DNA from: Nocardiopsis ansamitocini | GTDB lineage: Bacteria; Actinomycetota; Actinomycetes; Streptosporangiales; Streptosporangiaceae | NCBI RefSeq assembly: GCF_030268225.1 | Contig: NZ_BSQG01000005.1 | Location: forward strand, 248,001-312,000 | Direction: 5' to 3' | DNA length: 64,000 bases | In this document: in pieces, positions 10,555-46,932 of the stretch | Position numbering within the stretch: the first letter of the stretch is position 1 | How the letters are laid out: each line of letters starts with the position of its first letter | The notes under the pieces: generated by a model | What the model was told of the DNA's origin: nothing | Database searches by the model: none | What the model saw: the letters and a program-made list of their open reading frames with translations, nothing else | Program-made: the position numbers and the translations under genes

Positions 10555-13500
10555 CTAGCGGCCCTGGGGTTCGGCGTTCTCGACGCCCTCGGCGACAACC
10601 GGGCCGATCACGGCCATCACCGCGGGGGTGGCGAAATCGTCGTGGTCGCAGTTGACGTCGTGGTTGACGACCGTTCCGGCGACCTTGGGGCCCCAGTGCC
10701 GGTGGTCGCGATACTGGGCACCGGGGCTGACGTTGGCCTTGGCGGTGAAGACCACGAGATCACCGTCGTAGGGGCGGTACTCGGTGAAGGGCATCAGGCG
10801 CCCGATGTGGATCCAGGACTCCAGGATCCAGGTCAGGGTGGCGTCGTCCTGGGCGGCCAGGAGCGGGTGGTCACTGGCGCGCAGAACCGGGAACACCTGT
10901 TCGCGCACCAAGGGCGGCCCTCCCGCGTCCTGGACGGTGGCGCGGGCGTAGGCGAGCATGTCCGACAGTGCCGTCTGCTCCAGTTCGACCGGGTCGGTCA
11001 CCGTCGACATCTCCTCCAGCGGGGGAACCGGGAAGGTGTCCAGCAGGGCCAGTAGTCCGACCCGCTCCCCGGCTTCGCGCAGCAGGGTGGCCGCCGTGTA
11101 GGCGACCTGCCCGCCGTAGGACCAGCCCACCAGGTGGTAGGGCCCTTCGGGCTGGACCGCGCGGATGCGCTCCAGGTAGTAGTGCGCCATCTCCTCGGTA
11201 CTGGCCGGCATCCGGGAGACGTCGCCCGAGGAGGGCGGTTGGAGTCCGTAGACGGCCCGCCCCTCCTCGATGTAGGGGGCCAGTCCGGCGAATCCCCAGG
11301 AGACGCCATGCCCGGGGCTGAAGCAGAAGACGGCCTTCTTGCGGCGTCCCTCGCGCAGAGGCAGCAGGGAGGACCGGGCATGTTCGGAGGCCGCACCGGT
11401 GTCGGCCACGTGCGCGGCCAGCCGGGCGACCGTGGGGGCGAGAACCAGGGTGCTGGCGGTGAGCCGGACCCCCATGGCCTTGCGGATGCGGCCCACCGCA
11501 CGCATCGCCAGCAGTGAGTGGCCGCCCAGGACGAAGAAATCGTCGTCCACGGTGACCTCGGGCAGACCCAGCACCTCCGCGAAGATCGCGCACAGCGCCG
11601 TTTCGCGCTCGTCGCGCGGGGGCCGCCCGACGCTCGGGCGCGGTTCGGGGGCCGGCAGCGCGCGCTGGTCGAGCTTGCCGTTGACCGTCAGCGGAAGCGC
11701 GTCGAGCTCGACGAGAGCTGCGGGGACCATGGCTGCGGGCAGCCGCCGCGCCAGATCCGCACGCACCTCCTCCAGATCGGCACCGCCCCTGGCGGGGACG
11801 ACGTAACCGATCAACCGTTTCGCCCCGGGGACGTCCTCACGCACCGCGATGGCGGCCTGGGCCACACCCGCACACGCGGCCAGCTCCGACTCCACCTCCC
11901 CGGGCTCGATACGAAAGCCCCGGATCTTGACCTGGTCGTCGGTGCGGCCCAGGAAGTCCAGCCGTCCGTCGGCGCGCCAGCGCACGAGGTCGCCGGTGCG
12001 GTAGACGAGGCTGCCCGCCGCACCGGCGGGGTTGGCCACGAACCGTTCCGCGGTGAGGTCGGGGCGGCCGGCGTATCCGCGTGCAAGCCCCACACCGTCC
12101 AGGTAGAGCTCTCCGGGGACCCCCACCGCAACGGGGCGCAGGGCGGTGTCCAGCACCAGGGCCCTGGTGTTGGCGATGGGGCCGCCGACGGTGGGGGTGG
12201 CGCTCTCGTGGGTGCCACCGCCCAGCGCGTTGATGGTGTACTCGGTGGGGCCGTAGAGGTTGTAGCCCAGTACGCCCTCGGCCTCGGCAAGGCGCTCCCA
12301 GACCGCTTCCGAGACCGCCTCTCCCCCGAGCAGCACCAGGCACGGCCGATGCCGCGAGGCGTCGAGCAGACCGTCGTCGACGAGTTGGGCGCAGTAGGAG
12401 GGCGTGACGTTGATGACGTCGATGGCGTGCTTCGCACAGTAGGAAGTGAGGGTCAGGGAGTCGCGGCGCATCTCCTCGTCCATGAGGTGGACTTCGTGCC
12501 CTTGGACGAGCCACAGCAGTTCCTCCCACGACATGTCGAAGGAGAACGAAACCGTGTGGGCGATGCGCAGCACCCGGTTGCCGGCATCGGCCACGACCGG
12601 GTCGAAGATGGCGGCGCGGTGGTTGAGCAGCATGTTGGTCAGGCCGCGGTAGGGCACCGCCACGCCTTTGGGTTCGCCGGTGGAGCCGGAGGTGTAGATG
12701 GTGTAGGCGATGGCGTCGGGCGAGGCGGGAGCGGTGCGTTCGGCGTCGGTGATATCGGCGGCGCCGGTCACGTCCAGCAGGTCGAGCGTCTCCGGGGCGT
12801 CCAGGACCAGGCGCTCCAGGCCGGGCACCCCGGGAACCCGGTCGTGGGAGGAACGGCTGACGAGGACCATGGCCGGGGCAGAGCGGACGAGCATACCCGC
12901 CAGGCGTTCGGCCGGATGGTCGAGTTCGAGGGGGACGTAACCCGCCCCCGCCTTGAGGACCGCGAACAGGGCCACCACGGAGTCCACCGAGCGCGGCACC
13001 CCGATGGCCACCAGCGTCTCCGGGCCGACCCCGCGGTCGATGAGCACGCGGGCCAGGCGGTTGATCCTCGCGTTGAGTTCGGCGAAGGAGAGTTCGATGT
13101 CGCCGAAGACCAACGCGGTGCGTTCGGGCCAGCGCTGGGCGCCCTCCTCGAAAAGCGTGGCGATGGAGGTCGCGGGCAGGTCCAGGGCCGTGTCGTTGAA
13201 CGCCTCGATCGGGGCCAGGTCGGTGTCGGCGAAGAGCCGCAGGCGGCCCACTTGTTGTTCGGGACGGGCCGCCATCAGGCGCACCGCCCGAAGTGCGGAG
13301 TCGAGGGTGCGGCGGGCCAGCGCGTCGTCCACCTTGTCGGGCCGATAGGCCAACTGGATCTCGTAACCGTTCTCATCGGGGCGGATGACGAAGGTCAACG
13401 GGTAGTGCGTCTGGTCGGAGTCGCTGATCTCGCTGAGGCCGGTCTCGCGCACCAGTTCTTCGAAGGCGGCGTCACGGCGGGGCATGTTCTGCAACACGTA

Positions 13501-14541
13501 GAGGGTGTCGAAGAGCTGCCCGGCGCCGGTGGCGTGCTGGATCTGGGCCAAGCCCGTGTAGTGGTGGGGCAGCAGCGCGGTCTGCTCGGCCTGCACTCTG
13601 CGGAGCAGGTCCAGGACGCGCTCGCCGGGACGCAGCACGACCCGCACCGGCAGGGTGTTGAGGAACAGCCCGATCATCGATTCCACCCCGGCCAACTCGG
13701 GCGGACGTCCCGAGACCGTGCTGCCGAAAACCACGTCGTCCCGGCCCACCAGTGCACCGAGCGCCATTGCCCACGCCGTGCTGAAGACGGTGTTGGCGGT
13801 GACCCGCGCCGTGCGGGTGAGCGCGGTGACGGCATCGGCTTCGGCACCGGACAGGTGCTCGGTGAGCGGGACCGAGACCACGTTGCGGCCGTCGGGATCG
13901 GGGCGGGCCACGAGCGTGGGTTCGGTGAACCCCGACAGCGCCTCCTGCCAGGCGGCCAAGTCGGCGGCCTGATCACGGTCGCGCAGCCAGGCGAGGTAAT
14001 CGCGGAAGGGACGGACCTCGGGCAGGGCTGCGGGTTCGGTGCCGCGGTAGAGCTCCAGCAGCTCGCGTTTGAACAGACCGAGCGACCAGCCGTCGGCGAG
14101 GATGTGGTGGCTGGTGGACAACAACGCGGAGTGCTCGTCGTCCAGGCGCACGAACACGTAACGGAACAGGGGTGGTTTGGCGAGGTTGAACCGGCGGTGG
14201 CGCTCGTCCTGCCAGACCCGTTCCAGCGCGGCCTCGCGTTCGGCGGGCGCGGTGGCGCCGAGGTCGACCTCGCGCCAAGGGGCGACGGCCGTGCGCACAA
14301 TGAACTGGACCGGTTGTTTGACGCCCTCGTGCAGGAACCCGGCGCGAAGATTGGGATGACGCTCGAACACGGTCTCGCAGGCGGCGGTGCGCAACGCGGT
14401 GGTGTCCACCGGCCCGGTGAAGCGGAACAGCGTCTGCACGGTGTAGACGTCGATGTCATCGGCGGTGTAGACGGCGTGGTAGAGCAGCCCCTCCTGGAGC
14501 GGGGTGAGCGGGAGCACGTCTTCGAGTGCGGGCTTGGGCAC
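10555..14541 (-). CDS. NRPS, C-A-T-TE, predicted N5-hydroxyornithine module
   Basis: About 1328 residues. The C domain (about 5-440) has HHILADG near 144. The A domain (about 475-970) has TSGSTGEPKG near 615. The carrier has GGHSLLAM near 1005, and the thioesterase (about 1070-1328) has GWSYGG near 1137. Reading the A-domain pocket by eye against GrsA gives D-M-E-N-L-G-L-I-N-K (FDMSWEE, INVTPS, LLGGEA, NLYGPTEYTIN). I recall this as the code of the coelichelin N5-hydroxyornithine module. The ornithine hydroxylase gene in the operon supports that. I chose the GTG at 14541 because GAGGAGG lies five bases upstream; upstream open frame overlaps the previous gene. The TE would release, cyclise or dimerise the product. 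Confidence 0.9.
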   Translation of the reverse strand: MPKPALEDVLPLTPLQEGLLYHAVYTADDIDVYTVQTLFRFTGPVDTTALRTAACETVFERHPNLRAGFLHEGVKQPVQFIVRTAVAPWREVDLGATAPAEREAALERVWQDERHRRFNLAKPPLFRYVFVRLDDEHSALLSTSHHILADGWSLGLFKRELLELYRGTEPAALPEVRPFRDYLAWLRDRDQAADLAAWQEALSGFTEPTLVARPDPDGRNVVSVPLTEHLSGAEADAVTALTRTARVTANTVFSTAWAMALGALVGRDDVVFGSTVSGRPPELAGVESMIGLFLNTLPVRVVLRPGERVLDLLRRVQAEQTALLPHHYTGLAQIQHATGAGQLFDTLYVLQNMPRRDAAFEELVRETGLSEISDSDQTHYPLTFVIRPDENGYEIQLAYRPDKVDDALARRTLDSALRAVRLMAARPEQQVGRLRLFADTDLAPIEAFNDTALDLPATSIATLFEEGAQRWPERTALVFGDIELSFAELNARINRLARVLIDRGVGPETLVAIGVPRSVDSVVALFAVLKAGAGYVPLELDHPAERLAGMLVRSAPAMVLVSRSSHDRVPGVPGLERLVLDAPETLDLLDVTGAADITDAERTAPASPDAIAYTIYTSGSTGEPKGVAVPYRGLTNMLLNHRAAIFDPVVADAGNRVLRIAHTVSFSFDMSWEELLWLVQGHEVHLMDEEMRRDSLTLTSYCAKHAIDVINVTPSYCAQLVDDGLLDASRHRPCLVLLGGEAVSEAVWERLAEAEGVLGYNLYGPTEYTINALGGGTHESATPTVGGPIANTRALVLDTALRPVAVGVPGELYLDGVGLARGYAGRPDLTAERFVANPAGAAGSLVYRTGDLVRWRADGRLDFLGRTDDQVKIRGFRIEPGEVESELAACAGVAQAAIAVREDVPGAKRLIGYVVPARGGADLEEVRADLARRLPAAMVPAALVELDALPLTVNGKLDQRALPAPEPRPSVGRPPRDERETALCAIFAEVLGLPEVTVDDDFFVLGGHSLLAMRAVGRIRKAMGVRLTASTLVLAPTVARLAAHVADTGAASEHARSSLLPLREGRRKKAVFCFSPGHGVSWGFAGLAPYIEEGRAVYGLQPPSSGDVSRMPASTEEMAHYYLERIRAVQPEGPYHLVGWSYGGQVAYTAATLLREAGERVGLLALLDTFPVPPLEEMSTVTDPVELEQTALSDMLAYARATVQDAGGPPLVREQVFPVLRASDHPLLAAQDDATLTWILESWIHIGRLMPFTEYRPYDGDLVVFTAKANVSPGAQYRDHRHWGPKVAGTVVNHDVNCDHDDFATPAVMAVIGPVVAEGVENAEPQGR

Positions 14542-14587
14542 CGCTGCCTCCTCATACTTGGTTCGTTGTCGGTGGACTGCCCGGGCG

Positions 14588-17500
14588 TCACTGCTCATCG
14601 CGCAGTAGTGCCTCCAACGCGCCGAGGTCGTCGTCCTCCAGCGACACCAGGGACATGGCGGCGGGCCCGGCCGGGGTATCCGCCGGTTCCTCTGCGAGCG
14701 GACGTGCGGCGCGGGCCAGCGCGTCCGGGGTCTTGTGGGCGAACACGTCCTGGACGGTGATGGCCAGACCGCGGGCGCGCAGCCGGTTGCCGAGCTGGAT
14801 GGCCAGGATGCTGTCGCCGCCCAGGGCGAAGAAGTCGGTGTCGACGCCGGCGTCGGGCAGTCCCAGGACGTCGGCGAAGGCGGCACACAGCGTCGTCTCC
14901 ACGGCGGTGCGGGGGCGGTGCCGTCCGCTGAACACGGCCAGGTCGGGTTCGGGCAGTGCCGCGCGGTCGACCTTGCGGTTGGCCGTGAGCGGGAACCGGT
15001 CGAGGAGCGTGATCGCTGCGGGCACCATGTATTCCGGCAGTGTCCGTGCCAGGTCCTGGCGCAGTCGGACCGGGTCGGGGGCTGTGCCGGTGTGCGCTAC
15101 TGCGTAGCCCAGCAGCCGGGGGCGTCCGGTCGCGTCCTCCCGGGCCACGACGACGGCCTGGGCGACGTCGGGATGTTCGGTGAGGGCCGCCTCGATCTCG
15201 CCCAACTCGATCCGGAAACCGCGGATCTTGACCTGGTGATCGCTGCGCCCCAGAAAGTCCAGTGACCCGTCGGCCCGCCAGCTCGCCAGGTCACCGGTGC
15301 GATACATCCGCTCCCCCGGCCCCCCGTACGGATCGGCGACGAACCGCTCGGCCGACAGATCGGGACGACCGACATATCCCCTGGCCAGTCCGATCCCCGC
15401 GATGTAGAGGTCGCCGGGGGTGCCCTCCCCCACCGGGTGCAGGGCACCGTCGAGCACGTAGACCCGGGTGTTGGCGATGGGCCGCCCGATACCCACCCGG
15501 CGTCCCGTCACACGGTCGGCGGTGGACCACACCGTGGTCTCGGTCGGACCGTAGAGGTTCACCGCGCCGCGTGTTCCATGCGCGAGGTCCTCGGCCAGGT
15601 CGGGGGGAAGCGCCTCGCCCCCCACGAGGGCGCGCAGCCCGCTCGCCGCCGTCGGGGCGTGGGCCAGCAGCGCCCGCCACAGGGTGGGGGTGGCCTGCAT
15701 GACGGTGGCCCCGCTGGAGGCGCACAGGGCCGCCAACGCCGCGGGGTCGCGCACCGTCTCCTTGCCGGCCAGCACCAGGGTTGCTCCGGCCATGAGCGGC
15801 AGGTAGAGCTCCAGGGCGAAGATGTCGAAGCCCACCGTGGTGACCGCCAGCATCCGGTCCTCGGGCGTGAGCGGGAACCGGGCGGCCATGTCGGCGAGGA
15901 AGTTGGCCAGGGCGTCGTCGGGCACCGCCACCCCCTTGGGGCGTCCGGTGGAACCGGAGGTGTAGAGCAGGTAGGCCAGTTCGTCGGCGCGGCGGGGACC
16001 GACACGCTCCTCGGAAGCGAGGGGGGTGTCGGGGAGTGCGGCGAGGGCGGTCAGGGTGTCGGGCGCGTCCAGGACCACCCGTTCGGCCGTGTCGGGGAGG
16101 GCGGGGGCGAGGTCGGTGGTGGTCACCAGGAGGACCGCGCCGGAGTCGGCGAGCATGTGGGCGAGCCGGTCCGCGGGGAAACCGGGGTCGAGGGGCAGGT
16201 AGGCGGCCCCGGTCTTGCGCACCGCCAGGAGGGCGGCGACGAGGTCGACGCTGCGCTCCAGCGCCACTGCCACGACGCGTTCGGGGGCCGCACCGCGCCG
16301 CAGGAGAAGCCGCGCCAAGCGGTCGGCGCGCGCGTCGAGGTCGCGGTAGGAACATTTCCCCTTGTCGCTGACAACGGCGACGTGGTCGGGAGCATTGCGT
16401 GCGGCGACCTCCATGCGGTGAAACGAGGAGGGTCCGACCGGACCGCTGACCGCGGGCGCACCGAAGGATTGCACGGTCGCACGGCGTGTTGGGGGCAGCA
16501 GGTACGGCCGGCCCACCGGCCGGTCGGCCGAGGGAGGGGTGGGCGCGGTGAATCCGGTGAGGAACTCGGTGAGCTCTGCGGCGCGCTCGGCGAGGTCGGC
16601 TTCGGGGTAGCGTGCGGCGTTGGCGTTGGCGTGGACCTGGAGGGTGTCGCCGGTTCGGCGCACTGACAGCGAGAGGTCGTCGACCGGCCCCTCCGAAAGC
16701 GTGTGCGTGAGTGCCCCCGCCCCGGCAAAGGACAACGCATAGTCGAACGCCTTGATATTGACCATCGGACCGTACAGACCCGTCGCACGACCCACCAGCC
16801 CCAGATCACGCCGCACCTCCTCCGCCCGGTACCGCTGATGCCCACGCACCCCCCGCAGGCCGTCCCGGGTCGCGGCGACCAGGGCGTGAACGCCGGTGGC
16901 CGGACCGATGTCCAATCGCAGGGGCAGGATGTTGACGACCATGGCGGGGGTGCGCAGCGCCACCGACCCCAGACGCCCCATCACCGGCACCCCCACCACC
17001 ACGTCACGACGCCCCGTACGACGATGGGTGTAGGCGGCGACACCGGCGACCACGGCCTCGGCCCAGGTCGCCCCGCTGCGCCCGCCCAGCGCGTCGAGTG
17101 CGCCGGCCATGCCCTCCGGCAGGTCGAGGACGTGTCTTCGGCAGCCCCGTGCGGGTGCGGGAGGGGCGGTGCTGAGCAGTGCGGGTTCGGGCCGGTCGGC
17201 CAGGGTCTTCGTCCAGAACGCACGGTCGGCGAGGTACTGGGGGCCGGCGCGGTAGGCGGTCTCGGCCCCGACGACGTCGGCCAGGGTCCCGAAGCGGCGG
17301 GGCGGCACACGTCCGGCCGCCAGTGCGGTGTGCACCTCGGCGACGCGGCGGGCCAGGGTGGTGATCCCGTAGGCGTCGAGAATGATGTGGTGGGCCCGCT
17401 GGTACCACAGGTGCTGGTCGTCGGCGAGGCGGTAGACGGTGTAGTCGAACAGCGGTCCGCTCAGCGGGTCGACGGCGGTGGCCATGTCGCGATGCATGAG

Positions 17501-17806
17501 CCCGTATGCGACGGTGCGGGGGTCGGTGTGGCCGCGCAGGTCCACCACCGGCAGCGACCAGTCCAGTCGGGGCCGGATGATCTGGTGGGGGACGTCGCCC
17601 TCGACGCCCAGACCGGTGCGCAGCGCATCGGTCTCGTCGATGACCGCACGCACGGCCTCTTCGAAGACGGCGAGATCCAGGGGGCCGGTGATCCGGGCGT
17701 ACTGGCCGACGTTGTAGGCGGCCGTCCCCGGATCGACGCGCAGCGCGTACCACACGCCCAGTTGGGCGCCGGTCAGTGCCAGGCGGACACTGTCGGGGGA
17801 GTTCAT
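14588..17806 (-). CDS. NRPS, single C-A-T module with EntF-like C domain
   Basis: About 1072 residues. The C domain (about 1-430) matches the N-terminal C domain of EntF, which joins DHB to an amino acid: [12 protein letters not shown] at the start, [26 protein letters not shown]. Its active site reads HHIILDA, with Ala in place of the usual Gly. The A domain (about 455-960) gives a by-eye pocket of D-I-L-Q-L-G-L-V-W-K, the glycine-type code. The carrier has GGDSILAIQ near 995. A tail ending [20 protein letters not shown] resembles the tail of the preceding NRPS. It lies 40 bases after that gene. Long blocks are identical in DNA to module 1 of that NRPS. It may start a second DHB-Gly arm. Confidence 0.9.
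15134..17033. repeat. Mosaic duplicate of the module 1 C-A region (copy in the one-module NRPS)
   Basis: Blocks identical in DNA to the trimodular NRPS: 15134-15352 equals 26094-26312 (219 bp), 15399-15490 equals 26359-26450, 16048-16217 equals 27008-27177, 16689-16858 equals 27643-27812, and 16931-17033 equals 27885-27987. The spacing is constant at about 10.95-10.96 kb. Diverged DNA separates the blocks, the pattern expected of gene conversion. Confidence 0.9.
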
Positions 17807-17846
17807 GGTCTCCTGCTCTCGGTGGGTGGGGCGCTGACGAAGGGGA

Positions 17847-20800
17847 TCACAGGTCACGCAACAGGGCTTCGATGTCGTCGATCTCGTCCTGGTCCAGGGA
17901 GACCAGTGACAGGTCCGAGGGGGTGGCCCCGCCCGCACCGGTGCCGGCCGCGTGGGCGGCGATACCGCGCAATGCCGCGAACCATCCTTCGGCCAGGTCG
18001 TCGACCTGCTGTTCACTGACCAGCCGGGGCGCCCACCGCCAGGATGCCACCAGGCGCACGGCGCCGTCCTCCTCGTGGACGACCGCGTTGACCTCGACGG
18101 GGTGGCTGAGCGGCTGGTCCGGGTCGGCGGTGTCGGGCAGTTCGGCCGCTTCGGGGACGCGCTGCCATGGAGCGTCCGTGCCCACCGGGAAGCGGCCCAG
18201 GTAGTTGAACAGCAGACCGGGGGTGTCCAGGCGGGCGAGCTCGGCCGCGGTGTCGGGGGCGAGGTGGCGCAGCAGGCCGAACCCGATTCCGTGGTCGGGG
18301 ACGCGGCGCAGTGCCTCTTTGACGCGTTTGACGGCGACGCCCGCGGCCGGGCCGCCCGCGACGGCGTCCTCGGCGTCCAGACCGCCCAGGTCCAGTGCCA
18401 CGGGGTAGACGGTGGTGAACCAGCCGACCGTGCGCGACAGCTCGGCACCGCCGATGACGTCCTCGCGACCGTGGCCCTCGATGTCTACCCGCCAGGCCCC
18501 TGCGGGGACGCCCGGGGCGCGCCATCGGGCGAGTGCCAGCGCGAGGGCGCTCAGGAGCACGTCGTCGGCGCCCGCTCCGAAGGCGGGTGCGACGACGCTC
18601 AGAACGGTGTCGGTGAGGTCGGCGGACAGGGTGTAGGTGCGGGTGGCCGCGGTGGCGACCGTATCGCCGGCGGGGTCCAGGCGTGCGGTGAACGGTGCGG
18701 GCGCGGCCAGGGTCGCACGCCACAGGTCGAGTTCACCGGCGCGGTGGGCGCCGCGGGCGTGCTCGACGAGGTCTTCGGCCCAACGGCGCAGGGGGGTCCC
18801 CGTGGGTTGGGGGGCGGGGTCCCGCCCGGCCAGCGCCGCCGTATAGGCCCGGCCCAGGTCGGGCAGCAGGATGCGCCAGGAGACGCCGTCAACGGCGAGG
18901 TGGTGCACGACCAGCAGGAGCCGGCCGGGTCGGTCGGGGCCCGCGTCCAAGCGTACGGCGGCCACGACCCGACCCGCGGCGGGGTCGAGGCGGTCGGCCG
19001 CGGCGTGGGCCTCGTGGGCGGTTCGGTGCCGGAGGGCGTCGCCGTCCAGACCGGACAGGTCCGCCTCGCGCAGGACCTCCTCCGCGCGTACCGTGCCGGG
19101 GGGCGGGACCAGTGCGCCGACGTCGGGGTCGGCCGGGTCGACGATCAGGCGAAGCGCGTCGTGGTGGTCCAACAACGCCTGGAGGGCCGTGGAGAGCGCC
19201 CTGTGGTCGGTGGGGGCCGGCAGGCGCACCAACTGGGTCTGGTTGTACCGGCGCACCGGACCGCCGCGCTCGAACAGGTCGCGCATGATCGGGGTCCACG
19301 GCAGGCGGCCCAGGCCGGCCTCGGGATCTGCCGCCCGGGGGGATTCGGTGTCGTCGAGGGGGACCGCGACGCCGGCGAGTCCGGCGACCGTCGGATGCTC
19401 GAAGACGTCGCGGGTGGAGAGGGCCAGTCCCAATCCGCGCACACGACCCACCAATTGGATGGAGACGATGCTGTCACCGCCGAGGGCGAAGAAGTCGTCG
19501 TCGACGGTCACCTCGGGGAGGCCGAGCACCTCGGCGAACGCGGCGGCCAACGCTGCTTCGACGGTGTCGGCTGCCCCCCGCCCCGTCCCCCTGCCCGGGG
19601 TCTGGGGCGCGGGCAGCGCGGACACGTCGAGCTTGCCGCTGACCATCAGCGGCAGGTCGTCCATGACGACCAGGGCCGAGGGGACGAGGTGCGTTGGCAG
19701 GACCCGGGCGAGTTCGGCGCCGAGCGCATCGGGGTCGAGGGCGGTGTCGGGGCCGGGGACGGCGTAGCCGACCAGGCGCGGCCCCGCGGGACCGTCCGAA
19801 CGTGCCACGACCGCGCACCGTGCGACCCCCCGCAGTTCCGCCAGTGCGGCCTCGACCTCTCCGGGTTCCACGCGCAGGCCGCGGATCTTGACCTGGCCGT
19901 CGGCGCGGCCCAGGATCTCGACCCGGCCGTCGGCGCGCAGCCGGGCGCGGTCGCCGGTGCGGTACATGCGTGCTCCCGGTGCGGCGAAGGGGTCGGCGAC
20001 GAATCGCTCGGCGGTTCCGCCGGGGCGGTTGAGGTACCCCAGTGCCAGGTGGGCTCCGGAGAGGTAGAGCTCGCCGGCCACACCTGGCGGTACCGGTCGC
20101 AGCCAGGCGTCGAGCACGTAGCGGGCGGTGCCGGGCAGTGGATGCCCCGCAGTGGGCGCGGGAGTGTCGGCGACGTCCCCGACGAGGGCGTCCACGGTGC
20201 TCTCGGTGGGGCCGTAGAGATTGAGCACCCGGGTGTCGGGCAGGGCCCGCATCCGCGTCCACAGCGATGCGGGGAACGCCTCACCCCCCACCACCGCGAT
20301 CCGCGGCATGGTGAAGTCGTGGCCCGCGTCCAGGAGCCGCTGCCAGAACGTCGGGGTGAAGTCCAGGTAGTCGATGGCGTGTTCGGTGACGTAGCGGGCC
20401 AGGCGCGGCGGGTCAAGGTAGTGGTCCTGGTCCAGCAGGTGGAGTTCGTGTCCCAGGAACAGCGCCAGGAAGGCGTCCCAGGAGGCGTCGAAGGTGAAGG
20501 ACACGGTGTGGGCGACGCGCAGCGGCTCCCGCGCGGAGCCGAACAAACCGGTGCGGTGGTGGTCGAGCAGGTTGGCCAGGGCCCGGCGCGGCACGACCAC
20601 GCCCTTGGGGGTTCCGGTGGAGCCCGAGGTGGAGACGAGGTAGGCGGGGGCGTCGGGCGTCCGGGGAGGATCGGCCGGGGGTGGGCCGGGAGCATCGACG
20701 CGGTCGGAGGCGTCGAGGTCGATGACCGGGCTCTTCTCCGGCAACTCGGTGTCGAAGCCGGCGGCGCGCAGGACGGCGACGGGTGCGAGGTCGGCGAGGA

Positions 20801-23800
20801 GCGTCGCCAGTCGCGCGGGCGGGTGGTCGGCGTCGAGGACCAGGTAGGCGGCGCCGACCTTGAGGGCGGCCAGGATCGCCACGGGCAGGCGGACCGAGCG
20901 GGGCACCGCCAGCGCGATCCGGTCGCCCGGCGCCACTCCACGGGTGCGCAGCAGGCGGGCCAGGCGCTCGGCGGCCGCGTCGAGCTCGGCGAAGGTGAGC
21001 ACGCCGGCGGGGTGGACCAGTGCGCGACGGTCCGGCCACCGGGCGACGGTGTCCGCGAAGACGTCGGCCGCGTCCCGGGGGGCGGTGGCGAGCGGGGCGG
21101 GCGCAAGCGTCGTTCTTTCGGCGCCGGTGACCAGGGCGAGGCGGTTCACCGGCTGGTCGGGGTCGGCCGCGATCTGTTCCAGCAGGCCGGCGATCCGGTC
21201 GACCAGTTCGCGGGCCGTCGCCTCGGGGAGCACGCCGATGCGGTGGTCCAGGTGCAGCAGCAGGCGCCGGCGAGGGTAGGCGGTAAGGGTGAGGGGGTAG
21301 TGGGTGGCGTCGTCGAAGGACACCGCGCTCAGCACCGCACCGGCGAAGTCCCGACCGCGCAGCTCCTGGTCGTCGGGGTGGTTCTCCACGACCAGGAGCG
21401 TGTCGAAGAGGGTGCCCAGGCCCGCAGCGCGCTGCACCTGTGGGAGCCCGGCGTGCTGGTGGTCCAGCAGCGCGGCGTGCTCGGCGTGGACCCGACGCAG
21501 CAGTGCGGCTGCGCTCTCCCCCGGGTTCAGTCGGACCCGTGCCGGCACGGTGTTGACGAACAGTCCGACCATCTCCTCGACACCGGGCAGCGCGGCCGGG
21601 CGCCCCGACACGGTCTCGCCGAAGACCACGTCGGTGCGGTCGGCGAGCGTGCCCAGCACCAGGGCCCACACGGCGCGCAGCAGCGTGCCCGTGGTGATCT
21701 CCAGTCGGCGCACCAGGTCGGCGAGGCGCCCGGTGAGTTCCGGGGAGAGCTCCAGGCGGGCGCGCACGGCCGGCCCGGTGTCGGCGTCACCGTTGGGGGC
21801 GACCAGGGTGGGGCCGTCGAGCCCGCTCAGGGCGCTGCGCCAGGCGTCCTCCGCGACGGAGGGGTCCTGGTCGGCCAGCCAGGCGAGGTGGTCGCGGTAG
21901 GCCGGTGCCGGGTCGAGGGGGTACCCGGCGTACTGGGCGAGCAGGTCGCGCAGGAGCAGGGGCATCGACCATCCGTCCAGGACGGCGTGGTGGTGGGTCA
22001 GGACCAACCGGGAGGCGTGCGCGGACATCCGCACCAGAGCCATGCGCAGCAGCGGCGGTCGCGCCAGGTCGAAGCCGGCCGCGCGTTCGGCGCGGGCGAC
22101 GCCGGCCACCAACGCCTCGGGGTCACCGGCCGGGTCCGCGGTGTCGGACCGCCAGGGCAGCCGCGCGCCCTCGACGACGAACTGCACCGGTTCGTCAAGG
22201 CCCTCGTGGGCGAACCCGGCGCGCAGGTTGGGGTAGCGCTGTAGCAGAGCGTCGGCGGCCCGGTGCAGCCGCTCGGGGTCGATGTCACCGGCCAGTTCAA
22301 GAACGGCCTGGTAGACGTAGGTGTCGTCGGCTCCGCCGTGCAGGGCGTGGAAGACGAAACCCGCCTGTAGTGGGGTGGTGGGCCAGATCTGGTCGACGCC
22401 GGCCGGGCCGGCCGCGGTCGTCACGGCGCGCCGCTGGGCGTCGGTGAGGGGCACGTCGAGGACGGTGGCCGAAGGGGCGGTTGCGGCCGTGCGGGCCGCG
22501 CGGGCCAGTGCGGCGACCGTGCGCAGCTCGAACACCTCGCGCACGGTGAGTTCCAGCCCTGCCGACCGGGCCCGGCCCACCAGTTTCATGGCGGTGATGC
22601 TGTCGCCGCCCAAGGCGAAGAAGTCGTCGTCCGTCCCGGGTTCGGTACCGGCCAGCAGTCGCCCGACGGCGGTTGCGAGGACCTGCTCGGCCCGGTTGCG
22701 GGGGGCCGTGCGCTGGACGGGGGCGGCGGCGTCGGGCGCGGGAAGCGCCGCGCGGTCGACCTTGTTGCTCGAGGTCAGCGGTAGCGCGTCGAGGAACACC
22801 AACGCTGAGGGGACCATGTAGTCGGGAAGCAGCCGGGCCAGTGCCCCCAGCAGTACGGCGGGATCGGGGCGTTCACCGGTGCCCACCACGGCATAACCGG
22901 TCAACTGGGTGACGCCGGCCGCGCTGGCGTGCGCGGCGGCTGCCGCAGCGGTCACCCCCGGCTGGCGGGCCAGGACCGACTCGATCTCGCCGAGTTCGAT
23001 GCGGTGCCCGCGAATCTTGACCTGGTGGTCGGTGCGGCCCAGGAAGTCGGTGCGGCCGTCGGCGCGCACCCGGGCACGGTCCCCGGTCCGGTAGAGCCGG
23101 GTGCCGGGCGGACCGAAGGGGTCGGCGACGAAGGCCGCGCTGGTGAGGTCGGGGCGCCCGGCGTAACCGCGGGCGGTGAACGGGCCGCCGATGAAGAGGT
23201 CGCCCACCGTTCCCGGCGGCACGGGGCGCAGTGCGTGGTCGAGTACGTGGAACCGGTAGCCGGGAAGGGGACGGCCGATGGTGGGATCGGCGGGGTCGGT
23301 GACCTGCTCGGCCGATGCCCAGACGGTGGCTTCGGTGGGGCCGTAGAGGTTGGTCACCCGGGCACCCGCCGCGGCGAGGCCGGTGGCCAGATCGGCGGGC
23401 AGGCTCTCGCCGCCGGTGAGCAGCCTCAGCCCGGGGAGGATCTGTGGTGCCTCGCTCAACAGCGCTCGCCACAGCGTGGGGGTGCCCTGCATGACGTCGG
23501 CGCCGCTAAAGGCGCGCAGGGCCGCCAACGCCGCGGGGTCCAGCACCGTGTCGCGGTCGGCGAGAACCACGGTCGCGCCGTGCAGCAGGGGCAGGAACAG
23601 TTCCAGGACGGAGATGTCGAAGACGAGCGTGGTCACGGCCAGCATCCGCTCGCCCCGCCCCAATGGCACCGCTTCCCCGACGGAGGCCAGGAAGGCGTCC
23701 ATCGCGCCGCGGGACACCACCACGCCCTTGGGCCGACCGGTTGAGCCCGAGGTGAAGATGGCGTAGGCGGTCGCGGCCGGGTCGCGCAGGGCCTGTTCGC

Positions 23801-26800
23801 CGCCAGTCAGCGGCTTCGGGGAGAGCGAGCGCAGTTCAGCGGCGGTTTCGGGGGCGTCCAGGATGATCGTCGCGACGTCGTCGGGCAAGGCGGCAGCGAG
23901 CTCGGTGGTGGTGACGAGTAGGCGCGCCCGGGCGTCGGACAGCATCCCGGTGATGCGCCCGGCGGGTTGTGCGGGGTCGAGCGGCAGGTAGGCGCCTCCG
24001 GCACGCAGTATCCCCAGCAGGGTCGGCACCAGCACCGAGGAACGGGGCAGGGCCACGCCCGTGACCGATTCGGGCCCCGCACCCCGGGCGGCGAGCAGGC
24101 GCGCGGTCCGGTTGGCGGCGGCGTCGAGTTCGGCGTAGTCCAGGACGGCGTCGGCGGCGACGACGGCGGGAGCGCCCGGGTCGAGCCGGGCGTACTCGGC
24201 GACGCGGTCGGTGAGGTCGACGGTTTCGGGGGCGGGGGCCGCGGGCGGGTGCGCGCGCTCGTGGGGGGAGCGCGGGTCGATGTCGCGGACCCGGACCCCG
24301 GGATCGGTCGCGACTTGGGTGAGGACCGCCGCGAGGCGGTCGAGGATCAGGGCGGCCTCCCGCGCGTCGAAGGCGTCGGTGCGGTGAACCAGCCGCAGCC
24401 CGAGGCGTGCGCCGGGGAACACGCTCAGCGCCAACGGGTAGTGGGTGGCGTCGGTGACGGTGGTGTCGGTGACGGTCAGCCCGCCGTGCTCCCCGTCCGC
24501 CACGCGTGCACGCAAGGGGAAGTTCTCGAAGACCAGGAGGGTGTCGAAGAGGGGGCCCAGACCTGCGGCGCGTTGAATGTCGGCCAGGCCGCGGTGCTGG
24601 TGCTCCAACAGCGCGGTCTGGCGGGCGCGCAGGTCGCCGAGCACGTCGCTCACGCGGTCGCCCGGGCGGGCCTGCACGCGGACGGCGATGGTGTTGATGA
24701 ACATCCCGATCGCGGTCTCGGCGTCGGCGACGTCGGCGGATCGTCCGGCGACGGTGGCACCGAACACGACGTCGGGACTGTCGGTGAGGGCGCCGAGCAG
24801 CAGCCCCCACCCTGCCTGGACGAGCGTGTTGGGGGTGGTGCCGAGGCGTCGGGCGGTGGCGTCGAGGGCGTCGGTGGTCGCGCCCGGCAGTTCCAGTAGG
24901 GCGGTTGCGGTCGGCCCCGGGACTGCGGTCGGTGCTTCGGGCGCCACGAGGGTCGGGGCGGACAGTCCGCGCAGTTCCGCGGCCCATGCCTCATCGGCCG
25001 ACCGGTTGTCGCGCCCGGCGAGCCACTCCAGGTGGGCACGTATCGGGCCAGGCCCGGCCGGCGCGGTTCCCGACGCGCCGGTGGCGTAGAGGTGGAGGAG
25101 ATCGCGCAGGTAGAGAGGGATGGACCAGCCGTCGAGCAGGATGTGGTGGTGGGTGACGGCGATGCGCTGGTGTCCCGGTCCCAGCCGGATCAGCGTGACG
25201 CGCCACAACGGGGGCCTGGTCAGGTCGAAGGGCTCGGCGAGATCGTGCTCGGCGAGATCGGTGAGGGCACGTGCGCGCTCGTCGTCGGACAGCTCACCCA
25301 GGTCGACCTCGGTGAGCGGCGCGTGGATGCCGACGGCCGCGAACTGAACGGGCGAGGCGTCACCGTCCTGCCAGAAGCCCGTGCGCAGGGCGGGGTGGCG
25401 GTTGGCCAGTGCGGCCAGCGCAGCGCGCAACCGCGCGGTATCCAGTTCACCGTCCAGGTCCACTTGGGTGCGTACGACGTAGGGATCGTGTCCGGCAAAG
25501 TAGCGGCTCTGGAAGAACAACCCCTCCTGGAGGGGGGTGAGGGGCAGGACGTGGTCGATGCCGGTCGGGCCATCGGGGTCGAGCCCGGCCCGGTCCGCCC
25601 GGATCAGACGCTCGATGTCGGCGTCGGGTCGGAGGGACACCGCCGATACGGGGGCCGGGGCGGCCGTGGCGACGCGCGCGAGGGCCGCAACGGTCCGGTG
25701 CTCGAAGACCTGCGCCATGGTCAGGGCGATTCCGGCGGTGCGCGCCCGGTTCACGGCCTGGATGGCCAGGATGCTGTCGCCGCCCAGCGCGAAGAAGTCG
25801 TCGTCGACACCTACGGCGTCGCCGCCGAGAAGGTCACCGAAGACAGCGAGCAGCGTCCGCTCCCCCGCGCCGCGCGGTGCACGTCCGCTGGGACCGGCGA
25901 CGGGCCCGGGTTCGGGCAGTGCGGCACGGTCGATCTTGCGGTTGGCGGTCAGTGGCAGGGCGTCCAACGTCACCAGCGCTGCGGGAAGCATGGAGTCGGG
26001 CAGCCGACCGGCCAGGTGGGTGCGCAGTTCCGCCGGGTCGGGCTCCCGTCCGACAGGGACCAGGTACCCGACGAGGACGGTACGCCCCGGGGTGTCCTCC
26101 CGGGCCACGACGACGGCCTGGGCGACGTCGGGATGTTCGGTGAGGGCCGCCTCGATCTCGCCCAACTCGATCCGGAAACCGCGGATCTTGACCTGGTGAT
26201 CGCTGCGCCCCAGAAAGTCCAGTGACCCGTCGGCCCGCCAGCTCGCCAGGTCACCGGTGCGATACATCCGCTCCCCCGGCCCCCCGTACGGATCGGCGAC
26301 GAACCGCTCGGCGGTGAGGGAGAACCGGCCCAGGTAGCCGTGGGCGAGACCGGCTCCGGCGATGTAGAGGTCGCCGGGGGTGCCCTCCCCCACCGGGTGC
26401 AGGGCACCGTCGAGCACGTAGACCCGGGTGTTGGCGATGGGCCGCCCGATGCTCACCTCCCCGCTCTCCACGGCTGCTGCCGTGGACCACACCGTGGTCT
26501 CGGTCGGACCGTAGAGGTTGGTGGTGGGACCGTGGGCGGCCAGTCGGCGGGCCAGGGCGGGGGGCAGTGCTTCGCCGCCCACCAGGATGCGCAGCCCTCT
26601 CAGGACATCGGCGTTCTCGTCGGCCAGGGCCTGCCACAGGGTGGGGGTGGCCTGCATGACGGTGGCCCCGCTGGAGGCGCACAGGGCCGCCAACGCCGCG
26701 GGGTCGCGCACCGTGTCACGGGTGGCCAGGACCACGGCCGCGCCGTGCAACAGCGGCAGGTATAGCTCCAGGGCGAAGATGTCGAAGCCCACCGTGGTGA

Positions 26801-28763
26801 CCGCCAGCATCCGGTCCTCGGGTGCGAGCGGGAACCGGGCGGCCATGTCGACGAGGAAGTTGACGAGGCCGCGGTGGGAGACGACCACCCCCTTGGGGCG
26901 GCCGGTGGAACCGGAGGTGTAGAGGACGTAGGCGGCGCTGTCGATGGCCGACGTGCCCGAGCCGGCCCCGGCTCGGTCGAAGGGGCGCCCCGGGGCCGCG
27001 GCCACCGCGGTCAGGGTGTCGGGCGCGTCCAGGACCACCCGTTCGGCCGTGTCGGGGAGGGCGGGGGCGAGGTCGGTGGTGGTCACCAGGAGGACCGCGC
27101 CGGAGTCGGCGAGCATGTGGGCGAGCCGGTCCGCGGGGAAACCGGGGTCGAGGGGCAGGTAGGCGGCCCCGGTCTTGAGCACGGCAAGGAGGGTGGCGAC
27201 GAGGTCGGCGGTGCGCTCCAGCGCCACTGCCACGACCCGGCCGGGAGCCGCACCGTGCTGGTGGAGGACGTGGGCCAGCCGGTCGGCGCGGGCGTCGAGT
27301 CGCCTGTGGGTGACAACGGCGTCTGCGGTGATCAGAGCGGGGGCGTCGGGAGTACGTGCGGCGGCCTCCGCCAACAGATCGGGCAGTGGCCGGTCGGGCA
27401 CGGCACGGTCGGTGGCGTTGAGGCCGGTCAGGAGCCGGTGGCGCTCGCCGTCGGTGAGGAGGCCCAGGCGGGCCACGGGATCGGTGGTGCGTGCCCGGGA
27501 CAGGTCGGTGAGCAGTCGGACGAATTCGGCCAGGCGCTGTGCGGCGTCGGCCGCACAGTAGCGTGCGGCGTTGGCGTTGAGTTCGAAGCGCAGGGCACCG
27601 TCGGTGCCGCGGTAGACCGACAGCGAGAGGTCGTCGACCGGGCCCTCCGAAAGCGTGTGCGTGAGTGCCCCCGCCCCGGCAAAGGACAACGCATAGTCGA
27701 ACGCCTTGATATTGACCATCGGACCGTACAGACCCGTCGCACGACCCACCAGCCCCAGATCACGCCGCACCTCCTCCGCCCGGTACCGCTGATGCCCACG
27801 CACCCCCCGCAGCCGGTCGAGGGTGTGGGCCAGGGCCTCGCCGATAGCGGTGGCGGGGGCGAGGTCCAGGCACAGTGGCAACACGTTGACGACCATGGCG
27901 GGGGTGCGCAGCGCCACCGACCCCAGACGCCCCATCACCGGCACCCCCACCACCACGTCACGACGCCCCGTACGACGATGGGTGTAGAGACCGAAGGCCG
28001 CGATGACCGTCTCGGCCCACGTCCCTCCGGTCTCGGCGGCGAGTCGGTCGATCCCGGCGAGGGCATCGGGGCCGAGCCCGCCGTCGGCGCGGACGGTGGT
28101 GCGGGGCGGCGCGGGCGGGGCATCGCTGAGCAGGGCGGGTTCGGCCCGACCGGACAGCAGCTCCCCCCAGTAGGTACGGTCCGCGGCGGCAGCGGCGGAA
28201 CCGGTGTACGCGTGCTCGGCGGCGATGACGTCGGCCAGTGCTCCGGTGCGCGCTGCCCGGGGCTCGCTTCCCTCGGCCAGGGCGGTGTAGACCTCCGCGA
28301 CCCGGCGGGCGACCTGCGTGACGGTGAAGGCGTCGGCGACGACGTGGTGGTAGCGCTGGTACCACAGGCAGCGGTGCTCGCTTAGGAGGAGCAGGGCGTG
28401 GGCGTGCGGCGGCCCCGCCGCGAGATCGGCGGGCACCGCCATGTCCTGGCGCATCCATTCCAGTGCCGTGGCCTCGGGGTCGGCCTGCGTCCGCAGGTCG
28501 CGCACGTCCAACAGGGGGTCCCAGTCGTCGAGGACCTCTTGCAGGGGATGGCCGTCCGCGTCGGCGAAGCGGGTTCTCAGCGCCTCGGCCTCGGCGACCG
28601 CCTTACGCAGGGCGGCCGCCAGCAGCCGGGGATCGAGGGCCGCCGGGATGTCGACGTACTGCCCGACGTTGTAGACGGGGTTGGTGACGTCGACCTGCTG
28701 GGCGTACCAGACGCCGGCCTGGGCCGCGGTGAGCGGGAGGCGGGATGCGGAGTGGTCGGCCAT
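17847..28763 (-). CDS. Trimodular NRPS, C-A-T-C-A-T-C-A-T-E
   Basis: About 3638 residues. Module 1: EntF-like C (HHVVADA near 138), A1 ([10 protein letters not shown] near 614), T1 (GGDSILAIQ near 996). Module 2: C2 (HHHILLDG near 1204), A2 near 1669, T2 near 2051. Module 3: C3 (HHHAVLDG near 2254), A3 near 2709, T3 near 3095. A terminal epimerisation domain has [10 protein letters not shown] near 3287. By-eye pockets are D-I-L-Q-L-G-L-V-W for A1 and A2 (Gly-type) and D-A-D-D-V-G-L-V-D for A3, whose acidic residues suggest a basic side chain such as Arg. Expected product: DHB-Gly-Gly-D-(basic residue). ATG 28763 has GAGGAG ten bases upstream. Confidence 0.9.
26094..27987. repeat. Mosaic duplicate of the module 1 C-A region (copy in the trimodular NRPS)
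   Basis: Partner of the 15134-17033 stretch, with the same five perfectly matching blocks. Shared blocks fall mainly over the late C-domain motifs, the adenylation core and its C-terminal subdomain. Confidence 0.9.
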
Positions 28764-28836: not shown

Positions 28837-29085
28837 TCAGCTGCGGGACAACAGCGCCGACCAGGCGTCCAGGGTCGGCTCCTCGGCCAGGGTGATGAAG
28901 TCGGTCTCCACCCCTGCCGCACGCCAGGTCTCGACCAGGCTCATCAGCCGGATGGAATCCATGCCGTGGTCGAGGAGGTCCTCGTCGCCGGCGAGGCCGG
29001 CGCTGTCGGGTCCGAGGACCCGTTCGACGTCGGCGCGGACCTGTCGGGCGGTGAGTCCGGGGGTGGTGCCGGTCGGTTCGGACAT
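28837..29085 (-). CDS. Stand-alone aryl carrier protein (ArCP)
   Basis: An 82-residue carrier domain with the phosphopantetheine site HGMDSIRLM (Ser44). It is placed between the ornithine hydroxylase and the trimodular NRPS. DHB-AMP ligase would load DHB onto it for delivery to the EntF-like C domains. In EntB and DhbB this domain is fused to isochorismatase; here it is separate. The short length, a single carrier motif and lack of other domains support the call. The ATG at 29085 follows GGAGAGCGAGCACC. Confidence 0.9.
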
Positions 29086-29111
29086 GGTGCTCGCTCTCCT
29101 GGAGGGGGTGG

Positions 29112-30416
29112 TCAGCCGCGCGCGGAAGCGCCGCTTCTGGTCTGGATGGAGTCGAGGATCTCGGCAACTCTGGTGGCCACGTTGGACAACAGGGAGGAGG
29201 AGACCCCGTGGGTGTGCTCGGTACCGCCCTGGAGGTAGATACCGCAGGTGATGTCGTCGCTGGTGACCAGCCGGTAGTCCCGTTGGACGGCCGGTCGCCC
29301 CTCGGGTGTGGTGGCGCAGTGCGCGGCCAGGTCGCCCAGGAGGGGGCGGGGGTCGGCGGGGTGGTAGCCGGTGGCGTAGACGACGTAGTCCGCGATCAGA
29401 GGCGTCTGCTTGCCGGTGGGCAGGTGCTCGACGGTCAGGGTGACGTTGTCGGGCCCTTCGACGAGGCCCGCGACCCGCGAGGTGTTGTGCATCCGCAGGC
29501 GTTGGACGCCGTGGACCTTTTCGGCGTAGACCCGGCGGTAGAGCGTGTCGATGAGGTCGGGGTCGACCACCGAGTAGTTGGTGTTGCGGTGGTAGCCCAT
29601 CAGTTCGGCCTTGACCTCGGTGGGGGCCTCGAAGAAGGCGTCCACGGCCTCGGGGTCGAAGATCCGGTTGGCAAAGGGGCTGTCGTCGGAGGGGCTGTAG
29701 CCGTAGCGGGAGAACACCGCGTTGACCTCGGCCGCGGGGAAACGCTGGTGCAGGTGGTCCACGACCTCGGCGGCGCTCTGGCCTGCACCCACGACCGCGA
29801 ACGACCGAGGGGCGGCGTCCTCGGGCAGCGCGGCGAGTTCGTGCAGCAGGTACTCGTTGTGCCATACCCGCGTGGACGGGGTGACGCCCGTGGGCAGGCG
29901 GGGGGTCAGGCCGGGGCCGAAGACGACGTTTCGGGTCCGCAGCGTGCTCTCCCGGCCCGCCTGGTCCCGGGCGATGACGTCGAGGCAGGTGACCCTGCCC
30001 TCGGAGCGCACCGGCCGCAGGCCGGTCACCTCGTGGCCGTAACGGACCTGGCCGGCGACCCTGGCAGCTGCCCAGGCGAGGTAGTCGTGGAACTCGGCGC
30101 GCAGCGGGAACAGGGTCTTGTGGTTGATGAAGTCGTGCAGGCGGTCGGCCTGGTGCAAAAACGCCAGGAAACTGAAGTCGCTGGCGGGGTTGCGGGTGGT
30201 GACCAGGTCCTTGAGGAAGGAGACCTGCATGGTGGCGTCGTCCAGCAGCATTCCCCGATGCCATCCGAAGGCGGCCTGACGCTCCAGGAATACTCCGCTG
30301 AGCGATCGTTCCTGCGTGGCGCGCTCGTCCAGTGCGATGGCCAGGCCGAGGTTGGAGGGGCCGAACCCGACCCCGACCAGGTCGTGGACCACGGTCTCCT
30401 GCTCAAGCGTTGACAT
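29112..30416 (-). CDS. L-ornithine N5-monooxygenase
   Basis: A 434-residue flavin N-hydroxylase of the SidA/PvdA/IucD family. FAD site GVGFGPSNLGLA (about 15-26), NADPH site AVVGAGQSAAEV (about 205-216) and the C-terminal ATGYHP motif are all present. It makes N5-hydroxyornithine, the hydroxamate precursor matching the code of the terminal NRPS module. No formyl- or acetyltransferase gene is in the operon. The hydroxylamine may thus be acylated inside the peptide or cyclised, as in fuscachelin-type compounds. It starts 40 bases after the isochorismatase stop. Confidence 0.9.
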   Translation of the reverse strand: MSTLEQETVVHDLVGVGFGPSNLGLAIALDERATQERSLSGVFLERQAAFGWHRGMLLDDATMQVSFLKDLVTTRNPASDFSFLAFLHQADRLHDFINHKTLFPLRAEFHDYLAWAAARVAGQVRYGHEVTGLRPVRSEGRVTCLDVIARDQAGRESTLRTRNVVFGPGLTPRLPTGVTPSTRVWHNEYLLHELAALPEDAAPRSFAVVGAGQSAAEVVDHLHQRFPAAEVNAVFSRYGYSPSDDSPFANRIFDPEAVDAFFEAPTEVKAELMGYHRNTNYSVVDPDLIDTLYRRVYAEKVHGVQRLRMHNTSRVAGLVEGPDNVTLTVEHLPTGKQTPLIADYVVYATGYHPADPRPLLGDLAAHCATTPEGRPAVQRDYRLVTSDDITCGIYLQGGTEHTHGVSSSLLSNVATRVAEILDSIQTRSGASARG

Positions 30417-30456
30417 GTCGTTGCCCTTCACTAGTGGTGTGGCGCGAGTGGGCCGG

Positions 30457-31119
30457 TCAGGCTCTGGCCGGGGTGCTGGCCAGGTCGGCGCCCAGTGCGG
30501 TGCGTGCCTGGTCGGCGAGCACCGCGACGGCGCAACGGCGGGCCGCGTAGCCGACCGCGAATCGGTGGTCCTCTGCGGTGAAGTCCGCCATCGCATCGGC
30601 GACGAAGAACACCTGGATGTCGCGCATGAACGCGTCGGCAGCCGTCAACAGGCAGCCGATGTGGGCGTAGACGCCGGTCAGGATGATCTGGTCGCGTCCG
30701 GCCTGTTCCATGCGCTGGGCAAGGTCGGTCTGCACGAACGCGCTGTAGCGCCATTTGGTGAGCAGTACGTCCTGCGGCTCGCGGGCAAGACGCTCGTCGA
30801 TGTCGGTGTGCTCGGCGACCGCCCTCATCCCGGCCCCCCAGAAGTGCTGCTCCAGCCCGCGCTCGCCCGCACTCATGCCGCCGGGTTTTGCGGTGTAGAC
30901 GACCGGGACCCCGGCGGCGCGGCAGTCCGCGCTCAGCGCACGGATGTTGGCCAGGGCGCCGTGGAGCGGCTGGGCCTCGGGGTAGGGGCGCAGGAAGTAA
31001 CGCTGCATGTCGTGCACGACGAGCAGTGCGCGCCGCGGGTCGAGGGTCCATCCGGCCCGGTTTTCGGGCAGGTCCCCCGCGCCGGGGAGCGGGTAGGGCT
31101 CGATCGTGGGCAGTGCCAT
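30457..31119 (-). CDS. Isochorismatase (EntB N-domain type)
   Basis: A 220-residue isochorismatase that follows the EntB N-terminal domain closely: ALPTIEPYPLP at the start, VVHDMQRYFL with the catalytic Asp, KWRYSAFVQT, ITGVYAHIGC-like LTGVYAHIGC, and DAFMRDIQVFFVADAMADF. It converts isochorismate to 2,3-dihydro-2,3-dihydroxybenzoate plus pyruvate. The usual C-terminal aryl carrier domain is missing and is encoded separately. ATG 31119 fits the family start; a TTG 12 bases upstream is less likely. Confidence 0.92.
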   Translation of the reverse strand: MALPTIEPYPLPGAGDLPENRAGWTLDPRRALLVVHDMQRYFLRPYPEAQPLHGALANIRALSADCRAAGVPVVYTAKPGGMSAGERGLEQHFWGAGMRAVAEHTDIDERLAREPQDVLLTKWRYSAFVQTDLAQRMEQAGRDQIILTGVYAHIGCLLTAADAFMRDIQVFFVADAMADFTAEDHRFAVGYAARRCAVAVLADQARTALGADLASTPARA

Positions 31120-31155
31120 CAGGTGGTCCAATCGCTGGGTGGAAACGAAGCGGTC

Positions 31156-34132: not shown

Positions 34133-34912
34133 TCAGCGCAGGGCGGCTCCGCCGTCGACGTAGAGGTCGTGCATGGTGATGTGTCGGGCTGCGTCGGAGG
34201 CCAGGAAGCAGACGGCCGCGGCGATGTCGCCCGGGTCGGCGATCCTGCCCAACGGGATGCCGACCTTGTAGGAGGCGGGGTCGCCGGCGACGACGTCGGG
34301 GGTGCCCGTGGCGCCGTTCATGCCGTGCAGCATCGGGGTGTCGGTCGATCCGGGGGAGACCACGTTGCAGCGGATCCCGTGTGGGGCCAGCTCCAGGCCC
34401 AGCGATTTGGTGAAGGCGACCGCTGCGGCTTTGGACGCGGCGTAGGCGGCCATGTTCGCGCGGGGCACGCCCGCGGCGTTGGAGGCGACGGTGATGATCT
34501 GTCCCCTGCGGCGCGGCCGCATCAACCGGGCCGCTGCCCTGGAAACGGTGAAGACGCCGGTCGCGTTGACGGCGAGCATCGCGGCCCAGTCGGCGTCGGT
34601 GCACTCGGTGACCGGACCGGTGCGCAGGATCCCGGCGACGTTGACGGCCAGGTCGACGGCGCCGAGGTCGCGTTCGATGCGCTCCAGGAGGGAGTCGACC
34701 TGCCGAGGATCGGTGACGTCGGCGGGGTAGGCGCAGATGGTGGCCTCGGCGCCGGTCCGGTCGGCACCGGACGCCTCGATCCGGTGGGGATCGATGTCGA
34801 CCGCGGCAACGGTGGCACCCTCGTCGGCGAGTGCTGCGGCGACCGCTCTGCCGATCCCCTGCCCCGCACCGGTGACCAGGGCGATCGACCCATCGATCCC
34901 GTTCCGGCCCAC
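34133..34912 (-). CDS. dhbA: 2,3-dihydro-2,3-dihydroxybenzoate dehydrogenase
   Basis: A 259-residue short-chain dehydrogenase of the EntA/DhbA type: TGAGQGIGRAV for NAD binding (about 15-25), NVAGI, the Ser and Y-x3-K active site (VASNAAG; YAASKAA), and RCNVVSPGSTDTPM. It forms DHB from the isochorismatase product. It is the first gene of the siderophore operon. It starts at GTG 34912 with GGGGGAGA immediately upstream, just downstream of the double iron box. Confidence 0.93.
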   Translation of the reverse strand: MGRNGIDGSIALVTGAGQGIGRAVAAALADEGATVAAVDIDPHRIEASGADRTGAEATICAYPADVTDPRQVDSLLERIERDLGAVDLAVNVAGILRTGPVTECTDADWAAMLAVNATGVFTVSRAAARLMRPRRRGQIITVASNAAGVPRANMAAYAASKAAAVAFTKSLGLELAPHGIRCNVVSPGSTDTPMLHGMNGATGTPDVVAGDPASYKVGIPLGRIADPGDIAAAVCFLASDAARHITMHDLYVDGGAALR

Positions 34913-39223: not shown

Positions 39224-39259
39224 GACGCGGGGCGCGAGAACGTTCTCGCGCCCCGCGTC
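39224..39259 (+). terminator. Perfect 36-bp palindrome after the SSI gene
   Basis: The arms 39224-39241 and 39242-39259 are exact reverse complements with no loop (GACGCGGGGCGCGAGAAC and its complement). It lies 17 bases after the stop codon and probably terminates transcription. The lack of a T run and the zero-length centre make a protein-binding or cruciform role possible. Confidence 0.7.
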
Positions 39260-46850: not shown

Positions 46851-46875
46851 AACGAGCGCCGCCCGAACAGCCCGT

Positions 46876-46924: not shown

Positions 46925-46932
46925 AGGCGGGG

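Follow-up and report, generated by a model that had tools for sequence, protein, structure and literature searches.

Evidence for patchy gene conversion between the starter modules of two NRPS genes in a siderophore cluster of Nocardiopsis ansamitocini

Concerted evolution of NRPS and PKS domains by internal recombination has been published (PMC4256081) and is discussed also in PMC9205934, and in the microcystin synthetases recombination or conversion of A domains has been described for mcyA2 and for mcyB1/mcyC, the mcyA2 tracts measuring 167-1029 bp (PMC3640908). Among siderophores, fuscachelin is a heterodimer according to PMC13251462, which also describes its synthesis as non-linear; its pathway is treated in PMC13251462 and PMC8097023. 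The window considered here is a 64,000 nt stretch of Nocardiopsis ansamitocini (contig NZ_BSQG01000005.1, positions 248,001 to 312,000), in which a mono-module NRPS gene (mono) lies next to a trimodular one (tri). We think it very probable that these genes carry anciently diverged starter modules of one catecholate-hydroxamate siderophore cluster that have been partly homogenized by recurrent short-tract gene conversion.

The features of fuscachelin-like clusters are present, namely DHB genes, a starter C domain, an N-monooxygenase and a hydroxyornithine-type TE module (Table 1), and the neighbours of the NRPS genes also include an EntS-like exporter and a siderophore-interacting protein. The pockets of mono-A, tri-A1 and tri-A2, as read from the sequence, are all DILQLGLVW, which we take to be a glycine code, just as we take the DMENLGLIN pocket of the terminal protein to be of the N5-hydroxyornithine type, on the pocket positions and codes generally used for A domains. 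The tri-A3 domain matches the leading, E-associated A domain of fuscachelin-like clusters, which there uses Arg, and the fourth Pfam 'Condensation' match in tri is an E domain, as judged by its sequence and its place in fuscachelin-like relatives. The mono C domain falls in the starter clade of a 38-domain tree and reads HHIILDAY at the HHxxxDA position, a motif found in nearly all starters examined. An earlier note had proposed that both modules are DHB-type starters with Gly A domains, and the starter-C clade, the HHxxxDA signature and the DILQLGLVW pocket bear this out. The fuscachelin cluster of Thermobifida fusca (fscG/H/I) likewise has a DHB starter C domain, Gly-Gly modules, an E domain and an N-hydroxyornithine-type TE module; it differs in that its A domain with E comes first, in having a further Ser module, and in being without a second starter module. 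No Ser module forming a cyclic hydroxamate-seryl ester was found among the five A domains of the Nocardiopsis cluster. Elsewhere in the window, a DEAD-box helicase gene (46933-48627, minus strand) contains imperfect tandem direct repeats at 47023-47301 in 33 bp steps (approximately 84-90% alike), and a perfect 36 bp palindrome (39224-39259) and a near-perfect 51 bp palindrome (46875-46925) are possible terminators or operators.

Table 1. Features of the siderophore cluster and of the two starter modules, in window coordinates
Feature	Position	Strand	Basis or remark
Terminal NRPS, C-A-T-TE, upstream start not fixed	10558..14586	-	Pfam; pocket DMENLGLIN from sequence
Mono-module NRPS (mono), C-A-T, 1072 aa, ATG at 17806	14591..17806	-	Pfam; starter-type C, Gly-type A
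Mono C-terminal tail, docking-type, 24 letters	14591..14662	-	Sequence comparison
Converted block, 219 bp	15134..15352 = 26094-26312	-	A domain, motifs A7-A8
Converted block, 92 bp	15399..15490 = 26359-26450	-	Exact match
Short identical block, 38 bp	15522..15559 = 26482-26519	-	Alone not significant
Converted block, 82 bp	15676..15757 = 26633-26714	-	Exact match
Converted block, 59 bp	15807..15865 = 26764-26822	-	Exact match
Converted block, 171 bp	16047..16217 = 27007-27177	-	A domain, N-terminal part
Converted block, 170 bp	16689..16858 = 27643-27812	-	C domain C-lobe; tree
Converted block, 103 bp	16931..17033 = 27885-27987	-	C domain C-lobe
Unconverted N-lobe of mono starter C domain	17036..17791	-	44% aa identity to tri module 1
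Trimodular NRPS (tri), C-A-T-C-A-T-C-A-T-E, 3638 aa; Gly, Gly, probable D-Arg	17850..28763	-	Pfam
Tri C-terminal tail, docking-type, 22 letters	17850..17915	-	Sequence comparison
Tri module 1 (starter C + Gly A), conversion partner, probable donor	25902..28745	-	Blocks, profile, tree
Stand-alone carrier protein, presumed aryl carrier for DHB	28840..29091	-	Pfam PP-binding 2.1e-8
L-lysine/L-ornithine N-monooxygenase family	29115..30596	-	Pfam Lys_Orn_oxgnase 9.8e-110
Isochorismatase, DhbB-like, carrier domain not found	30460..31131	-	
2,3-Dihydroxybenzoate-AMP ligase (DhbE/EntE)	31159..32796	-	TIGR02275 above cutoff
Isochorismate synthase (DhbC)	32839..34017	-	TIGR00543 above cutoff
Short-chain dehydrogenase, presumed DhbA	34136..34912	-	

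The presence of a second starter gene bears on the product that the cluster would make. The C-terminal tails of mono and tri are near-identical, with SLVSL..D.....EALLRD common to both (23 and 22 letters compared), and the Murinocardiopsis tri, which stands ahead of a like terminal protein, has a similar C-terminal end; the DNA of the mono and tri tails is diverged, which places them outside recent conversion. Because the tails are alike, they suggest that mono and tri face, and may dock to, one acceptor, the terminal C-A-T-TE protein. Mono would then be a second entry point, taking DHB from the carrier protein, making DHB-Gly, and passing it through the tri-like tail to the terminal protein to give a branched fuscachelin-like siderophore. 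Such a separate DHB-Gly arm is plausible given that fuscachelin is heterodimeric and made non-linearly, and the starter clade, the HHxxxDA motif, the Gly pocket, the shared tails and the stand-alone carrier protein are all in its favour; we nonetheless put this role forward tentatively. With a similar degree of reserve, the whole could be pictured as a convergent two-entry line, in which the separate tri and mono DHB starters dock, by way of their matching tails, to one terminal hydroxyornithine-TE module to give an unsymmetrical two-armed siderophore, conversion keeping their shared parts alike; if true, two arms would be built without using one arm-making enzyme twice. It is unlikely, in our estimate, that mono is instead an internal module between tri and the terminal protein in a linear five-module line, a reading about function that would leave the case for conversion untouched: the gene order (tri, mono, terminal protein) agrees with it, but the mono C domain belongs to the starter group, with HHxxxDA as in nearly all starters, and its tail resembles that of tri, suggesting one acceptor for both.

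The homogenization itself is visible at the DNA level. Mono and tri module 1 have exact blocks of 219, 171, 170, 103, 92, 82, 59 and 38 bp in common, the two copies lying 10,954-10,960 bp apart, with spacings that differ from one another by whole codons only, and an extra 30 bp identical block lies at 14795 with an offset of 10,963 bp. Blocks of 92-219 bp at nearly constant spacing, with diverged DNA between them, had been reported in the earlier note; both parts of that description hold, the blocks being exact and the profile not uniform, with DNA identity between blocks falling to about 0.4-0.7 and third positions to about 0.5 in a codon-by-codon comparison, so that silent sites there are near-saturated. 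Windows of 100% DNA identity adjoin windows in which about half of the third positions agree, which in this comparison is the background for unrelated codon choice. Over the whole module the two proteins are 64% identical, and outside the tracts the C-domain N-lobes have 44% of their residues in common and are saturated at silent sites. Gene conversion is recognized by tracts of near-zero divergence with sharply higher silent-site divergence at their borders, and this is the pattern found here.

The runs of agreement were evaluated in a ten-sequence alignment with orthologous modules, using 10,000 permutations of the polymorphic sites. Six mono/tri runs (127, 116, 75, 51, 50 and 48 sites) exceed every one of the permutations, in which the maximum is 32. 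Among 646 degenerate codons encoding the same amino acid in both modules, 55% share a codon outside the runs, and inside them up to 71 consecutive degenerate codons agree, the longest run in 10,000 permutations being 65. Since the silent codons agree unbroken inside the runs, protein conservation is unable to give this pattern. Mechanistically, conserved coding motifs would retain the identity needed for RecA-type recombination to start, and its tracts would end in diverged DNA. The blocks are also in-frame direct repeats, and the 10.96 kb deletion envisaged in the earlier note is possible, a crossover between them being predicted to fuse the two genes into a single hybrid C-A-T gene that ends in the mono tail.

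The history of the modules was followed in trees of 38 starter C domains, with N-lobe and C-lobe treated separately. In the N-lobe tree tri module 1 groups with its Murinocardiopsis flavida orthologue (99/97) and mono lies elsewhere, a clade of mono and tri being rejected (AU p=0.007); a clade of mono, tri module 1 and Murinocardiopsis is not rejected (p=0.109), and mono is a long branch there. In the C-lobe tree mono pairs with tri (100/99) and the pair joins Murinocardiopsis (99/95); forcing mono into the non-Nocardiopsidaceae starters, the group near its N-lobe, is rejected (AU p=0.0006). The trees conflict across a breakpoint inside the C domain, a second criterion of gene conversion, and the patchy conversion first suspected from the blocks is supported by the identity profile, the permutation tests and the conflicting trees together. 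The two modules do not stem from a recent duplication. On the best tree their split would predate that of this lineage from Murinocardiopsis, with tracts exchanged later; the deep split rests on the C domain because the A-domain trees outside the tracts do not settle sisterhood (AU p=0.50 for a constraint joining mono-A and tri-A1). Of the proposed sequence of duplication and then conversion, the conversion stands, and the duplication stands only in this deep sense and not as a recent event, given N-lobes that are 44% identical and the rejection of a mono and tri clade. Tri module 1 is the probable donor and mono the recipient, because both C-lobes group with the Murinocardiopsis orthologue of tri module 1 and the mono N-lobe lies elsewhere, although the long mono branch and the unrejected three-member N-lobe clade weaken this inference of direction, and transfer may have run from mono to tri.

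Could a third, foreign source instead have supplied both modules with the same pieces, if only in the C-lobe? Codon choice in the C-lobe differs from that of every relative (third-position identity of 0.42 versus about 0.75 among relatives), and the C-lobe pieces have the lowest codon scores of both genes, but such scores fall in the ordinary tail of the same genome (about 3-4% of windows in 154 background genes), the protein tree places the C-lobe piece with the native orthologue, and the closest DNA in 343 family genomes is 76% identical. We consider a foreign source improbable. A foreign origin of the C-lobe blocks was accordingly rejected as a candidate, the odd codons being within the spread of the genome and the donor search having found none. 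The converted C-lobe pieces (16689-16861 and 16973-17033) and their tri copies are marked by G- and T-ending codons such as CGT, GGG, GTG and CAT.

Related clusters place the mosaic in a wider setting. The family compared comprises Nocardiopsis, Thermobifida, Streptomonospora and Murinocardiopsis (343 family genomes, none of the same genus among those sampled). A like footprint is seen in all 16 within-cluster Gly-module pairs examined in related fuscachelin-like clusters, in which 11-73% of the A domain lies in exact runs of at least 30 bp; the corresponding share is 45% for mono and tri-A1, and 0% for the adjacent pair tri-A1 and tri-A2. Exact between-module blocks occur in most related clusters at full length, including those of single-contig genomes and that of T. 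fusca, whose Gly modules share blocks of 455 and 347 bp. In the related clusters L047, L049, L056 and others, neighbouring modules, modules 3 and 4 among them, share exact blocks of 843, 744 and 625 bp, a greater length that points to more recent or more frequent conversion in those clusters. Modules in this siderophore family thus convert as a rule, and in this genome the mono gene, 11 kb away, has taken the place of the neighbouring module as partner. Selection for keeping the modules alike, which had been offered as a cause, need not be invoked, as every comparable Gly-module pair of the relatives has a like footprint. The tri-A2 domain (tri module 2, 22.5-25.5 kb) sits on a long branch near Streptomyces A domains, apart from the Gly A domains of related clusters; this separate position may explain why it has not been homogenized with tri-A1.

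The closest tri orthologue is in the Murinocardiopsis flavida cluster (G007, L055/L072), which is alike in its arrangement of C-Gly-C-Gly-C-A3-E followed by C-A4-TE and differs in being without a mono-module gene; its Gly pair is weakly homogenized (11% of the A domain). No other cluster has a second strong starter domain among the matches listed in the 343 family genomes, and a search of named genomes by means of the E domain confirmed no close relatives. The block positions in mono and tri match those of the relatives weakly (r=0.27, with 54 of 465 circular shifts as good), and we make no claim of shared hotspots.

The same comparison bears on the possibility that a short-read assembler put one version of a repeat in both places. 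The assembly is a 42-contig draft and the block sizes are close to a read length, but diverged patches of both versions sit between the blocks within one 525 kb contig, and like blocks between modules are found in single-contig relatives (G346 and G023) and in T. fusca; an assembly collapse as the source of the blocks is thus very improbable. Next to no credence can be given to the view that module 1 was duplicated recently and the copies then diverged in the ordinary way, purifying selection preserving the blocks: their collinear order, constant spacing and location in the better conserved parts of the protein would suit it, but silent sites do not differ within the blocks and are saturated beyond them, the trees reject an N-lobe clade of mono and tri, and 71 degenerate codons in a row are not kept identical by selection on protein.

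Gene conversion between anciently diverged starter modules, the reading that we prefer, makes mono and tri a clean case in which modules of separate genes have undergone patchy conversion, and the comparison with relatives indicates that the choice of partner can shift in a family where conversion is the rule. The tract borders mark natural recombination points tolerated inside C and A domains, which is useful for synthetase engineering, and from the second starter gene a branched product can be predicted and tested. The process itself is known and is common among enzymes of this family; mono and tri add an example. As in the concerted evolution described previously (PMC4256081), the module domains of one cluster are homogenized at the DNA level, seen in that study as cluster-specific clades; here, however, conversion joins starter modules of two genes that lie 11 kb from each other, the tracts are partial and patchy, and the adjacent module of the same specificity is not included. 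Short recombination or conversion tracts inside A domains are likewise found in the microcystin synthetases (PMC3640908), where exchange changed substrate specificity, whereas the predicted Gly pocket is the same in mono-A and tri-A1. What is less ordinary at this locus is that the conversion partner is another gene 11 kb away, together with the second DHB-type starter module itself.
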